NCBI GenBank assembly: GCA_002718415.1
Contig: PBEM01000006.1
Span: 36,009-100,008 of the forward strand
Length of the DNA stretch: 64,000 bases
From: Chloroflexota bacterium
GTDB lineage: Bacteria; Chloroflexota; Dehalococcoidia; Lucifugimonadales; Lucifugimonadaceae
Direction: 5' to 3'
Made by a program: the position numbers and the translations under genes. Each line of letters begins with the position of its first letter. The first letter of the stretch is position 1. The notes under the pieces are model-generated. The model did not search any database. It was given only the letters and a program-made list of their open reading frames with translations, and was not told the DNA's origin. Positions 1,117-9,883 of this stretch are shown piece after piece.

Positions 1117-2361
1117 CTAATCTTTAGCTTCAGTAATCTTAATATTCCTAATATTGGGTTTAAACAATAATATTACTAAGGTTATTAATGCAAGTATAAT
1201 AGCACTAATAGTTACTGCAAGCCTTTCATCATAAAGTTCGGCTACAAAACCTCCCATCATTCCTCCAAGAGGTATTAAACTAAATGTAATCGTATATATT
1301 CCCATTACTCTTCCTCGCATTTCATTTGAAACTCTAAGTTGTATTATCGTCATTGACGTAACAAAATATAAAGTGTTAAAAAAGGGACCTATAAATAAAA
1401 ATAATAATGAGTAATAAAGATTTGTAGAGAAAGAAAAAAACACCAAACTTATTGAAAAGAAAATGGAACCGGATAACATTATATAACCTATATAATTATT
1501 TCTCTTGATTTTTTGAACTACAACAGTCCCAATCAGTGAAGCAACCCCCATAATAGAAAACATTAATCCCAAACCTCCAGCATCCTGTCCTAATCTTTTT
1601 GCAAAAAGTGGCATTAATTGTAATAACTGGAATCCAAAAAAATGCGTGCAATATGTCATTATAATAATCATAAAAATTTCGTTATTTTTATTAATATACT
1701 TAAATCCTTCAATTAATTGATCAAAGAATCTAAAATTATCTTGTTTTGATTTAATCTCAACTTTTATAGTAATTAGAAATAAGATCATAAGAATCCATCC
1801 TAAGGATGCAACGAGAAATGCCCCTCCTATGCCTGCGGAAACTATAACCCAACCTCCTAAGGCAGGAGCTAAAATTCTTCCAAGTTGCCACATAGCAGAA
1901 CTTAAAGCTACAGCACTCATCATATGATTTCTGGAAATTAATAGTGGGAAAAATGAACTTCTTAATGGACCGTCAAGACCTCCAAATAAACCTTGAAGTG
2001 CGGCAATGAGTAAAACATGCCAAAGTTTTATATTTCCTGTCGAAACTAATAATGCAAGTAAAATCAAACTTAGAGCCATAAAAGAAGAAATAATAAACAT
2101 CAATGTCCGTTTATTAAATTTATCTGCAAGTACCCCTCCAAATATAGCTACAATAATAGTTGGTATTGAAGTTGCAGCCCCTAAGTAACCTAACCATAAA
2201 GGACTACCTCCTAATTCATCGATAATTAGCCAACCTTGAACCAAAACAGAAATTTGAATGGCGCCAACAGAAGCAAAAGAACCTAGCCAATATCTACGAA
2301 ATGCAGGAACATTAAAAGCTCCTAAATTATCTTTTATTTTCGATAAAAATGTTGATTGCAT
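1117..2361 (-). CDS. MFS transporter
   Basis: 414 aa, multiple hydrophobic segments, GGVLADKFNKR loop typical of MFS. Confidence 0.85.
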   Translation of the reverse strand: MQSTFLSKIKDNLGAFNVPAFRRYWLGSFASVGAIQISVLVQGWLIIDELGGSPLWLGYLGAATSIPTIIVAIFGGVLADKFNKRTLMFIISSFMALSLILLALLVSTGNIKLWHVLLIAALQGLFGGLDGPLRSSFFPLLISRNHMMSAVALSSAMWQLGRILAPALGGWVIVSAGIGGAFLVASLGWILMILFLITIKVEIKSKQDNFRFFDQLIEGFKYINKNNEIFMIIIMTYCTHFFGFQLLQLMPLFAKRLGQDAGGLGLMFSIMGVASLIGTVVVQKIKRNNYIGYIMLSGSIFFSISLVFFSFSTNLYYSLLFLFIGPFFNTLYFVTSMTIIQLRVSNEMRGRVMGIYTITFSLIPLGGMMGGFVAELYDERLAVTISAIILALITLVILLFKPNIRNIKITEAKD

Positions 2362-2419
2362 TTTATAAATATCTAACCTAAAGTTATTCCTCCATCACTG
2401 AGTGGATACAAACAGTAAA

Positions 2420-2548
2420 TTATTCTTCCATGTAATTCTCTGCGAGAATGCCTTTTTCTTTTAATGTTTTTGTTAGTTTTTCTAAATGAACGAGTGCAGC
2501 CACACCAACCATCCCAAAAACAAATCCTATGACTGTTAATCGTTCCAT
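2420..2548 (-). CDS. small (42 aa) putative single-pass membrane protein MERLTVIGFVFGMVGVAALVHLEKLTKTLKEKGILAENYMEE
   Basis: ATG preceded by GGAG with good spacing (GGAGAAAATTATG on the minus strand); one hydrophobic helix then a charged tail; not in the supplied ORF track. Confidence 0.55.
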   Translation of the reverse strand: MERLTVIGFVFGMVGVAALVHLEKLTKTLKEKGILAENYMEE

Positions 2549-2561
2549 AATTTTCTCCTTT

Positions 2562-2595
2562 TAATTCACTGTTTAAACTTACTCAACAGTGACTG
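2562..2595 (-). repeat. direct repeat copy B: displaced glmS 3'-end fragment (…KAVTVE-stop + 13 nt)
   Basis: CAGTCACTGTTGAGTAAGTTTAAACAGTGAATTA aligns gaplessly with 3056-3089 (26/34 identical); in frame it encodes AVTVE-stop. Confidence 0.75.
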
Positions 2596-2619
2596 CCTTG
2601 GAAAAAAATGATTAAATTA

Positions 2620-3063
2620 TTAAGTATTTTTCCAAAAATTTAATGTTCTCTTACTAACTTGATTGTTATTTTTAATTAACTCTAAAACATAATTATAAAA
2701 ATTGTCTGCTTCTTCATCAGAGACTAATAATCTTAAACACTTTATAACTCTAGTTATCCTTAATTGATTGTGGTTATGTTGAGCATTCCAATACATATTT
2801 CTCTCCAAAAAAGAATAAAACCAATGAGAGGAAAAAATAATATTATTAGTTGCTTCTTTATTGTTTTTAATTTGATCTACAAGATCTTGACTATCAAGAT
2901 AATATCCGTGGAACACAGATTGACTGGGTTTATTTAATGGAAAAACTATTTGAATAAAATCATGATTTTCTTCTATTTCTTTATCTGTAAAAGACCAAAT
3001 ATCTTCAAGGGTTCTTCCTTTGAAATCTTTTCCTTTAAGAGTTAAGAAGTCTTCGTAATTCAC
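2620..3063 (-). CDS. opioid growth factor receptor (OGFr) conserved-domain-like protein
   Basis: 147 aa, GTG start; GRTLEDIWSFTDKEIEENHDFIQIVFPLNKPS ... HNHNQLRITRVIKCLRLL ... SKRTLNFW resemble the OGFr_N conserved region found in some bacteria. Confidence 0.75.
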   Translation of the reverse strand: MNYEDFLTLKGKDFKGRTLEDIWSFTDKEIEENHDFIQIVFPLNKPSQSVFHGYYLDSQDLVDQIKNNKEATNNIIFSSHWFYSFLERNMYWNAQHNHNQLRITRVIKCLRLLVSDEEADNFYNYVLELIKNNNQVSKRTLNFWKNT

Positions 3064-3089
3064 TGTTTTGTTCTACTCCACCGTAACTG
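3056..3089 (-). repeat. direct repeat copy A: authentic glmS 3' end plus 13 nt (includes the GTG start of the OGFr-like gene)
   Basis: CAGTTACGGTGGAGTAGAACAAAACAGTGAATTA; see copy B at 2562-2595. Confidence 0.75.
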
Positions 3090-4926
3090 TTTTTGCTAAA
3101 TTTCTAGGTTTGTCAGGATCAAGATTTAAACTAATCGCTGTATGATAGGCAATAATTTGCAATGCAATAATAAATAGTATTGGAGATAAAAGATTATTAA
3201 TTTTTGGAACTACAATTAAATCATCTGATAATGTCCTTAAATCTTTAGAATTACTATCGGTAATTACAAGAGTTTTACTACCCCTAGCTTTAACTTCATT
3301 AATAGTTCCTAAATTCTTTTCAAATAATTCATCATCAGGAATTATAAGTATTGTCGGCATTTTTGAACCTAATAGAGCATTTACTCCATGCTTCATCTCT
3401 CCTGCAGGATAACCTTCTGCATGTAAATATGCTATTTCTTTCATTTTTAAAGCACCTTCTAATGCAGTAGAGATATTAATTCCTCTGCCAAGATATAAGA
3501 TATTAGAATAACCTGACATACTATTGCCTAATTTTTTTATCTCAGTTTCACAATTTAATACTTCAGAAATAGAAGAAGGTAATATAGAAATATCTTTTAT
3601 TAATGATGAAATTGTGTTCCCAACAGATTTATTTAAATCTAAATTAAAAAAAAGAGCTAATTGTATAAGAGTTACCATAGTAGATGTTAGCGTTTTAGTG
3701 GCAGCAACCCCTATCTCTTGTCCCGCTTTAATACGTATGGTAGAGTCAGAAATCCTTGATGCTTCAGTACCAAAAGATTCAACAATTGAAATAACTTTAC
3801 ATGATTTATTTTTGAAATGTTCTATTGCCGATAATGTATCTGCTGTTTCTCCAGATTGAGTTATAGCTATTAATAGTGTTTTATCGTCAATTACCGGATT
3901 TCTATATCTTAATTCAGAGGAATTTTCGGCTGAAGAAGCAATTCCTAATATATTTTCAAATATATATGCTCCATACATTGCAGCATGTAGTGAAGTTCCC
4001 ATACCAGTAAAAATTATCCTATTAAATTCAGATATATTAATTTCTTTATTATCTATCTCGGGTAATATAACAGTATTAGATGAAAAATTTATTCTTCCGG
4101 CAATAGATGATTGAATTGAATTTGGCTGTTCATTGATTTCTTTAATCATATAATGTGGATATTCTCCTTTATCAACATCATATTTATCTACTTCAATTTT
4201 TTGGGGAGATCTATCGATTTCTTCTAAATCTGAATTATATAATTTGTAATTTCGATTTGAAATTTTAATAATTTCTTGATTCTCTAAATATAAAATTTTA
4301 TTAGTTCTTGGTAATAAAGCAGATAAATCTGAAGATATATATGTAGCATTATCATCTAAACCAACAACTATTCCTCCTGCATTTCCTAATCGTATCCCAA
4401 TTATTTCTTCAGGATTTGATATTGATATTGCTAAAATAGAAGAATTACCTCTTATTACTTTTTTTAATTTCGAAACCGCCTTAAGTAAATTTTCTCCTTT
4501 TTTTATTTCATACGAAAGATAATTGGCTATAATTTCACTATCGGTCTGAGATGAAAACCTAATACCTAAACATTCTAGTTTTTGTTTAATTTCTAAGTAA
4601 TTTTCTATAATGCCATTATGAACTATTGCTACTGTATTGTCGGAATCTGAATGCGGATGAGAATTATTTTTTGAAATCTCACCATGTGTTGCCCATCTAG
4701 TATGACCAATTCCGATATTTCCATTAAATTTATTATCTTTTATACTTTTTGTTAATTTATCAATACTAGATTTATGTTCTCCAAATTTTGAAATGTTGAT
4801 ATTTCCAACATTATCAATAACTGCAATACCGGCAGAATCATAACCCCTATACTCTAAGGATCTTAACCCTTTAACAATTATCTGAGCGGCAGAATGTTCT
4901 CCAATATATCCATAAATTCCACACAT
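3073..4926 (-). CDS. glmS: glutamine--fructose-6-phosphate aminotransferase (isomerizing)
   Basis: 617 aa; MCGIYGYIG N-terminal Cys, GIGHTRWATHGE, two SIS domains, C-terminal PRNLAKTVTVE. Confidence 0.97.
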   Translation of the reverse strand: MCGIYGYIGEHSAAQIIVKGLRSLEYRGYDSAGIAVIDNVGNINISKFGEHKSSIDKLTKSIKDNKFNGNIGIGHTRWATHGEISKNNSHPHSDSDNTVAIVHNGIIENYLEIKQKLECLGIRFSSQTDSEIIANYLSYEIKKGENLLKAVSKLKKVIRGNSSILAISISNPEEIIGIRLGNAGGIVVGLDDNATYISSDLSALLPRTNKILYLENQEIIKISNRNYKLYNSDLEEIDRSPQKIEVDKYDVDKGEYPHYMIKEINEQPNSIQSSIAGRINFSSNTVILPEIDNKEINISEFNRIIFTGMGTSLHAAMYGAYIFENILGIASSAENSSELRYRNPVIDDKTLLIAITQSGETADTLSAIEHFKNKSCKVISIVESFGTEASRISDSTIRIKAGQEIGVAATKTLTSTMVTLIQLALFFNLDLNKSVGNTISSLIKDISILPSSISEVLNCETEIKKLGNSMSGYSNILYLGRGINISTALEGALKMKEIAYLHAEGYPAGEMKHGVNALLGSKMPTILIIPDDELFEKNLGTINEVKARGSKTLVITDSNSKDLRTLSDDLIVVPKINNLLSPILFIIALQIIAYHTAISLNLDPDKPRNLAKTVTVE

Positions 4927-4945
4927 ATTTAAATACTTTTCATAA

Positions 4946-5611
4946 TTAATTTATATAAGAAAAATTAATATTCTTACTTATCTCATAACTGCCATGATAT
5001 TTATCTGGTAACTGCATTGCTATTTTTATCATTATTTCGTTTGTAGCTTCATCATAATCTTTTTTCTTAGAAAAACTTTCATTTTTTAAAGTAAATGCTT
5101 TACCAATATTTATTCTTAATTTTGAAATTGGAGCAAGAACTTTTAATAAATTTTGCAAGTTTTCAGACCCAGAAATACCTATTGGTACAATTGGAGTTTC
5201 TGTTAATGTAGCAAGTCTAGCAACACCTGATTTTCCTTTCATTAACTTTCCGGATTTACTTCTAGTGCCTTCAGGAAACAATATTAAGGCTTCTCCTAAT
5301 TTCAATTTATTCTCTCCCCATTTTAGAGCTGAAATATCTGCCCTACTCCTATCTACAGGATATGCACCATATGATCTCAAAAAAATGTTAAGAAAAGTAT
5401 TACTAAATAATTCTTTTTTTGCTAAAAAATTTGGTCTTCTATTTATAGAAGCTGCCACAATTGCTGGATCTATATTAGCAATATGATTTGAAACAATAAT
5501 AACAGGACCATCTAAAGGTATATTTTCTTGACCAGAAATTTTTATATCGGAAAAAACTGTTAAAGTTTTTTTAAAAGAAAAATTACATACATGAAATAAC
5601 CAATCACTCAA
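4946..5611 (-). CDS. plsC: 1-acyl-sn-glycerol-3-phosphate acyltransferase
   Basis: NHIANIDP (HX4D-like) and FPEGTRSKSGKLMKGKSGVA motifs. Confidence 0.92.
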   Translation of the reverse strand: MSDWLFHVCNFSFKKTLTVFSDIKISGQENIPLDGPVIIVSNHIANIDPAIVAASINRRPNFLAKKELFSNTFLNIFLRSYGAYPVDRSRADISALKWGENKLKLGEALILFPEGTRSKSGKLMKGKSGVARLATLTETPIVPIGISGSENLQNLLKVLAPISKLRINIGKAFTLKNESFSKKKDYDEATNEIMIKIAMQLPDKYHGSYEISKNINFSYIN

Positions 5612-8821: not shown

Positions 8822-9883
8822 ATGGAACATAATAATTATAGATTAACTCAATTAGCATCATCGGCTGGTTGAGCTGGAAAGCTTTCACAGAGCGAGCTCT
8901 CAAGTATTTTGAGCAAACTATCTCATGTTAATCATAATGATGAAAATATTCTCCTTGATCATAAAACAGGTGATGATGCAGCAATATATAAAATAGATGA
9001 ACGTCTATCTTTAGTTCTTACTTTAGATTTTTTTGCACCTATAGTAGATGATGGGTTTATTTATGGAGAAATTGCAGCAGCAAATGCTTTATCTGATATT
9101 TATGCTGTGGGAGGAAAACCTATCATTGCATTAAACATAGCAGCTTTCCCGCGAGATCTTCCTACAGAAATAATATCTTCTATATTGGAAGGAGGTATGT
9201 CTAAAGTAAAAGAAGCAAATACTGCTATAGTTGGAGGGCATACTATAGAAGATAAAGAGCCTAAATATGGTATGGCCATCACAGGATTCATAAACACTGG
9301 TGAACAAATTACAAATACCCAAGCTATGACAGGAGATATTTTAATTCTTACTAAACCTATCGGTACAGGTATTATTACAACCGCTCTAAGAAATAATAAA
9401 GATTTGCTCGATCAAGAATACTTGGATAACGCTATAGACTCAATGACTCAATTAAATAATATTGCTTCTAAAGCTATGAATCTTTTTCAGGTAAAATCCG
9501 CCACAGATATTACAGGTTTTGGATTATTAGGTCATTTACATAAAATGATGATAGAAAGTAAACAATCTGCAATTATTTCAGAAAATAAAGTACCAATACT
9601 TAAGGGTGCTAAAGAATTAGTTGAAAAAAATATATGTCCTGGAGGAACAACTAGAAACCTAGAATATGTGAAAGATTATGTTGAATTCTCAAAAGATTTA
9701 ACTATGGAACATAAAAAATTGCTTGCTGATCCTCAAACCTCCGGAGGAATACTAATGTCTGTGAAAGAGTCAAAAGTAAATCAATTATCTAATTACCTAA
9801 ATGACAACGGTTTAACAGGCCATAAAGTGATAGGTGAAATTACAGATAAAAAAGATTCTACTATAAAAGTATCTACTATTTAG
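8822..9883 (+). CDS. selD: selenide, water dikinase with predicted selenocysteine at codon 17 (TGA 8870-8872)
   Basis: ATG at 8822 in frame with the supplied ORF (8909); reading through TGA gives MEHNNYRLTQLASSAGUAGKLSQSELSSILSKLSH..., matching the SelD N-terminus (LTxxSxxAG-C/U-xxK) with U17/K20; the rest is canonical SelD. Confidence 0.93.
8899..8913 (+). promoter_or_regulatory. candidate bacterial SECIS apical hairpin CUCAA-GUAUU-UUGAG
   Basis: 5-bp perfect stem, 5-nt loop beginning with G (GU), 31 nt between the TGA and the loop, within the described bSECIS spacing. Confidence 0.45.

Follow-up and report, generated by a model that had tools for sequence, protein, structure and literature searches.

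How a second copy of the glmS terminus came to lie behind the glmS gene of a SAR202-type Chloroflexota bacterium is the question raised by this locus. In the window (the whole stretch of 64,000 nucleotides that was analysed), the minus-strand sequences at 3056-3089 (copy A) and 2562-2595 (copy B) can be aligned without gaps, and 26 of their 34 positions are identical. The original prediction read this pair as an integrated module with a replacement terminus, which had left the old terminus of the host behind as a scar, or alternatively as the residue of a larger element or a tandem duplication of glmS. Our results suggest, with a probability of roughly 85%, that two mobile gene cassettes lie in tandem at this locus, both from a family of small, non-autonomous elements whose target is the final few codons of glmS.

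The glmS locus and its relatives

Copy A was compared with both strands of the 64 kb. Apart from copy B, every other place gave 22/34 identities or fewer, and the maximum in thirty third-order Markov sequences of 128 kb was 23/34, so the predicted pair of repeats is real. The prediction that a single OGFr-like gene lies between copies A and B and starts with a GTG inside copy A was also confirmed by the ORF found there (Table 1). Its product scored 34.5 bits against PF04664, which is above the gathering cut-off of 22 and places it in OGFr_N. The product of the second ORF, of 42 aa, would probably be a small membrane protein, as judged from its sequence. No significant match was given by an Rfam scan of positions 2000-5200 of the window.

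A decayed third copy, C, had been overlooked. It lies past the 42-aa ORF on the minus strand (2422-2384, TAATTTACTGTTTGTATCCACTCAGTGATGGAGGAATAA) and contains an inverted arm that matches both other copies. On the minus strand the order is glmS, the OGFr cassette, the 42-aa cassette and an MFS gene, and a glmS-terminus-like site is present at all three junctions: A (glmS/OGFr), B (OGFr/42 aa) and C (42 aa/MFS).

Table 1. Features of the cassette array behind glmS, in window coordinates
Feature	Position	Strand	Description
glmS, anchor gene; SIS and GATase domains	3073..4926	-	64% identical to glmS of the congener G002; last codons ACG-GTG-GAG-TAG probably supplied by the first cassette
Site A, glmS/OGFr junction	3056..3089	-	CAGTTACGGTGGAGTAG-AACAA-AACAGTGA-ATTA; putative exchange point, AC at 3084-3083
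Cassette 1, OGFr-like, 494 bp	2590..3084	-	also in G002 and in the SAR86 loci L211 and L213
OGFr_N-like ORF, 147 aa	2620..3063	-	GTG start within site A; PF04664, E 2e-8
Site B, cassette 1/2 junction	2562..2620	-	degenerate right-end arm of the OGFr cassette, then GCAGTCACTGTTGAGTAA-GTTTA-AACAGTGA-ATTA; putative exchange point, AC at 2590-2589
Cassette 2, 42-aa, 195 bp	2395..2590	-	in G175 and G237, a glmS-terminus copy past the 42-aa homologue at exactly this 195-bp spacing
42-aa ORF	2420..2548	-	MERLTVIGFVFGMVGVAALVHLEKLTKTLKEKGILAENYMEE; homologues across phyla
Site C	2384..2422	-	right-end inverted arm TAATTTACTGTTTGTATCCACTC and decayed core CAGTGATGGAGGAATAA; G002 equivalent TCGCTCACAGTCGAATAG; most likely the displaced original glmS terminus
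MFS transporter, conserved, non-cassette	1117..2361	-	far side of the array; Pfam MFS; identical position in G002

Gene order in the congener G002 (glmS-OGFr-MFS-dgt) is that of the window, except that the 42-aa ORF is missing. Its OGFr gene is flanked by a perfect 15-bp inverted repeat (TTTCGAACAGTGATT / AATCACTGTTCGAAA) and followed by a glmS-terminus copy (AAACACTCGCTCACAGTCGAATAG), 496 bp past the glmS site. The predicted module of about 494 bp bounded by glmS-terminus repeats is thus present in this relative, and it is found in SAR86 too. Genes homologous to the 42-aa ORF were found immediately after glmS in other families of the order. As had been expected from the original prediction, the cargo at the glmS boundary differs between relatives.

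Both cassettes of the window occur in SAR86. The OGFr cassette stands behind glmS in L213 and within an array in L211, and the DNA of the window cassette is 86.5% identical to L211 (480 bp) and 84.8% identical to L213, versus 71.5% to the congener G002. The identity of the adjacent glmS is reversed, with 50% to SAR86 and 69% to G002. The C-terminal part of the L213 glmS is 98% identical to the glmS of another SAR86 genome, so this contig is not mis-assigned. The 42-aa cassette shares 84% DNA identity over 195 bp with the copy in a gammaproteobacterial MAG (L154). Homologues of its ORF were found in SAR202, SAR86, other Gammaproteobacteria and a Myxococcales MAG; in the latter MAG and in SAR86 the cassette again lies behind glmS, and the ORF begins at +47 from the site in all seven copies compared. 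This transfer argument rests on the identities, since the inner fork of the OGFr tree (six sequences) lacks resolution. Cassettes shared behind glmS by unrelated marine bacteria point to an undescribed route of single-gene exchange.

A recurring site and its arrays

The sites follow the consensus TCNGTNACNGTNGARTAR-N5-AACAGTGAWTTA with a fixed geometry. At left junctions, VTVE-stop is followed by five free bases and then by AACAGTGAWTTA; at right junctions, a TCACTGTT-like arm is often followed by nine bases and then by TCNGTNACNGTNGARTAR. The upstream arm is absent in many sites, and imperfect palindromy about a central AC is common. We inspected the termini of glmS in the order (47 distinct sequences), a few of whose loci had been obtained via cargo genes and not via the site. 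A AACAGTGA-like motif with at least 7/8 matches was observed only at offset 5 past the stop (3/47). With at least 6/8 matches, offset 5 gave 5/47 and each of 24 other offsets gave 0-1. Most glmS genes of this order have no such element behind them.

The site was detected in 59 of 107 genomes of the SAR86 family (94 matches), which, except for the centre genome of the family, were not chosen for the site; the reversed control pattern gave 0 matches. It is rarer in the order of the window, where 10 of 247 genomes contained it (11 matches, control 0). A search of GTDB genomes with a loose pattern returned at least 118 stretches, mostly from marine bacteria among the matches listed. In the loci examined, 71 of the 144 distinct sites were at a glmS end and the remainder elsewhere. 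In L114, L123 and L140, the AACAGTGAC arm seems to serve as the core itself: CAGTGAC stands directly before a NGTNGARTRR-like sequence, and an empty unit of about 22 bp remains, possibly an excision scar.

Tandem arrays were found in many SAR86 genomes, where same-strand runs of up to six or seven sites lie behind glmS and often enclose one small gene per segment. The same cassettes recur across these arrays beside different neighbours, for example the cassette of a 365-aa DUF6607 protein. GFA, DUF805, DUF6607 and sulfotransferase families are among the cargo, and a 4.2-kb cassette between two sites (L240:4216-8385) contains a type III restriction-modification pair, which is a defence cargo. 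In another SAR86 array (L235), the site at 9590 is on the opposite strand, which suggests inversion of a cassette block. At a contig end of G132 (L068), a 42-aa-type ORF and a site were observed with no intact glmS adjoining, that is, a cassette off its usual anchor.

The repeats could also be explained with no mobile cassette at all, by a duplication of glmS or by ordinary downstream operon genes with chance or decayed termini, and the glmS-OGFr-MFS order kept in G002 could look ancestral. We give this explanation practically no weight: the same geometry is found in many unrelated genomes with zero control matches, cassettes recur with different neighbours, and the closer relative of the window OGFr is in SAR86 and not in the congener, the opposite of what glmS shows. 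OGFr as an ancestral operon gene was dropped after its right-hand repeat in G002 and its SAR86 copies had been found. Likewise, the repeats in relatives, the arrays and the SAR86 identities ruled out a unique scar of about 494 bp and a tandem glmS duplication; the locus is instead one array of a widespread family.

The region of exchange and the search for an enzyme

Sites sharing one of their two cassettes delimit the region of exchange. In pairs sharing the left cassette, the identity was 0.85 through position 4 (numbered along CNGTNACNGTN) and at chance (0.30) at position 7. In pairs sharing the right cassette, position 4 was at chance (0.22), and the identity was 0.51-0.68 at positions 7-10. 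Among 56 same-right comparisons, which are not mutually independent events, the switch was sharp at AC in 29, near the border of N5 and AACAGTGA in 10 and mixed in 17. These data do not establish one point of exchange for all sites. In most comparisons the exchange is inside the last glmS codons.

This junction rule implies that the OGFr cassette gave glmS its present last codons, in support of the predicted swap of the terminus. Copy B would be a cassette-cassette junction, and copy C, by the same rule, the displaced terminus of the host. The integration reading thus stands as far as the module with a replacement terminus is concerned. Its account of copy B as the stranded old host terminus has to be corrected, with the left half belonging to the OGFr cassette and the right half to the 42-aa cassette, and its scar and duplication options are given up.

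On the model that we propose, a cassette would start with a replacement glmS terminus and a conserved arm (NGTNGARTAR-N5-AACAGTGAWTTA), usually carry one gene, and end with a half-site (TCNGTN-AC) that resembles the upstream portion of the glmS terminus and in many cases follows the inverted arm TCACTGTT. The exchange would be site-specific, at GTN^AC in the glmS terminus; it would insert the cassette, restore the glmS reading frame and shift the old terminus to the far side. Each insertion would generate a fresh site, at which further cassettes could stack in tandem. The sequences themselves document the site and its geometry, the tandem arrays, the recurrence of cassettes beside changing neighbours, their occurrence in more than one phylum and the region in which the exchange falls. 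A recombinase acting in trans, of the tyrosine or large serine type, would presumably do this work with a circular intermediate.

Homologous recombination or transformation between glmS loci, with the repeats as short homology, was weighed as the sole mechanism. Positions 2870-5200 of the window are about 96-100% identical to L031 of the same-genus G001. This near-identical block of about 2.3 kb takes in glmS, the first part of OGFr and a portion of the gene that follows; beyond it, the identity falls abruptly to about 74%. The G001 contig terminates inside OGFr. Either alleles were exchanged here recently, in the surroundings of the cassettes, or the block is an assembly artefact; allele exchange of this kind may happen at the locus. 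Homologous recombination alone is nevertheless improbable: the switch points fall within a site of about 20 bp, SAR202 and SAR86 share cassettes despite flanks that align poorly (glmS only 50% identical), and such recombination would leave the stacking in tandem and the exchange within arrays without an explanation.

An enzyme for site-specific insertion of cassettes was searched for. A PF00589 search of whole genomes gave mostly exactly two tyrosine recombinases per SAR86 array genome, which were taken to be XerC and XerD from their number and length. The serine resolvase domain PF00239 was absent from all SAR86 array genomes searched; it was present in 5 of 33 genomes overall, none of them SAR86. 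With the Y-recombinase model, about 140 array loci yielded no full-length enzyme of the tyrosine type. Fragments of such enzymes were found in two loci, the alphaproteobacterial L113 and that of HTCC2143 (three matches, two of which, L188 and L247, are both the HTCC2143 locus). Neither a recombinase linked to the repeat, which had been looked for on the original prediction, nor a circular form or a direct insertion event was found. A resident enzyme could escape detection, since the genomes are for the most part incomplete MAGs or SAGs.

Vectors were searched as well. In IMG/VR, the exact strict site and relatives of OGFr gave 0 matches each, and the loose-pattern matches (L105-L110) were rejected because they have no site context and look like chance. 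The site had no match in plasmid records and only chance-level matches in phage records (E about 5). The 42-aa ORF was rejected as a phage gene since it has no phage match, and neither cassette nor site was found in viral contigs, where both would be expected if the carrier were a temperate phage or satellite. The enzyme is apparently not resident in SAR86 array genomes. With no resident candidate there and these searches empty, a recombinase in trans is our working hypothesis.

Small proteins of 64-119 aa with a serine-recombinase-type HTH adjoin the site in L242, L244, L247, L113, L159, L177 and L179. They occur in Alpha- and Gammaproteobacteria, mostly as the first cassette behind glmS. One member matched the Recombinase/HTH domain PF07508 (E 3.7e-5), and in several the reading frame crosses the AACAGTGA arm, which then encodes NSD or NSE. 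The HTH protein, which has no catalytic domain, is a candidate site-binding factor.

As to the type of enzyme, a tyrosine recombinase like those of integrons or SE elements, encoded on an unsampled element and using inverted arms and an overlap of 6-8 bp (ACNGTN), is possible, although we hold it at somewhat below even odds. The transition zone of about 6 bp, the recombinase fragments in L113 and HTCC2143, and arms with a short spacer resembling core sites such as those of SE elements (PMC9345347) are consistent with it. On the other side are the XerC/XerD-like enzymes as the only ones in most SAR86 array genomes, the array loci without a full-length enzyme, and a site unlike attC, whose best match to the canonical XerD arm was no better than shuffled sequence (the canonical arm may differ from a clade-specific dif). 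A Ccr-like large serine recombinase in trans, with AC as a 2-bp overlap at the centre of the imperfect palindrome, much as for SCC elements at the 3' end of rlmH, is rather doubtful. The palindromy around AC, the sharp switch there in 29/56 comparisons, and the small ORFs with a PF07508-type HTH that several Alpha- and Gammaproteobacteria have past the site, in many cases immediately after glmS, speak for it; the absence of PF00239 from SAR86 array genomes, the HTH ORFs without a catalytic domain, and the partial sharing at positions 7-10, which exceeds 2 bp, speak against it.

Comparison with known systems

Leaning slightly in its favour, we suggest that the cassettes form a separate, integron-like system of marine bacteria, in which the glmS terminus is the dock, each cassette brings a new dock, and a dedicated recombinase acts in trans across phyla. 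Its hosts would be Chloroflexota, Pseudomonadota and Myxococcota, and possibly others. No description of glmS-anchored cassettes was found in open PMC full text. Few mobile elements have been recognised in SAR86 and SAR202, which are abundant, streamlined bacteria of the ocean and for the most part uncultured, and a searchable 30-bp site that marks cross-phylum transfer of single genes would be a direct handle on gene exchange in such genomes. The model predicts that new genes arrive behind glmS, that small membrane proteins, DUF805, DUF6607, GFA enzymes, a sulfotransferase and a type III restriction system are mobile, and that a site-specific recombinase is still to be found. The first cassette would rewrite the end of an essential gene with its product unchanged, so that docking would be unusually safe.

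The conserved coding end of glmS is also what Tn7 and Tn7-like elements recognise at attTn7, and variation at third positions is tolerated by them. In contrast to their downstream insertion, with an intact coding end and a 5-bp target duplication, insertion of a cassette replaces the coding end. The selector TniQ/TnsD was above the cut-off in 0 of 35 genomes, a cut-off which also misses E. coli-type controls, and it might be supplied in trans.

In SE elements (strand-biased circularising integrative elements), imperfect inverted arms of 19 bp surround a spacer of 6 bp at the junction; these elements encode IntA/IntB and have other target sites (PMC9345347). Their junction is similar in its inverted arms and short spacer, whereas the glmS cassettes encode no recombinase. 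The pdif modules of XerC/XerD are likewise small gene modules between short recombination sites.

With integrons, the system shares tandem, mostly single-gene cassettes of mixed and mostly unknown functions, one site per cassette, and shuffling from host to host. It differs in that the anchor is the glmS coding end and not attI, and the attC core GTTRRRY stands at the corresponding position in just 9 of 144 sites. IntI with attI was not seen beside the array, and SAR86 array genomes and loci, the genomes being incomplete, gave no IntI-type integrase, usually having XerC/D-like enzymes only.

The final codons of a housekeeping gene, rlmH, are the insertion target of SCC elements and CIMEs, which restore the terminus of that gene and accrete in tandem, with gene-end copies between stacked elements and inverted arms at element ends; some of these elements are recombinase-less. 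The glmS system has in common with them the insertion at a 3' coding end, of glmS and not rlmH, and a gene-end copy at each junction. It differs in its cassettes, which are 0.2-4 kb long, often carry one gene and are common to several phyla, and in that no ccr-type large serine recombinase was found in SAR86 arrays. In conclusion, the system works like an integron or SCC yet lacks defining features of both, and functionally it is closest to integron cassettes and to the accretion of SCC/CIME elements at a gene end.
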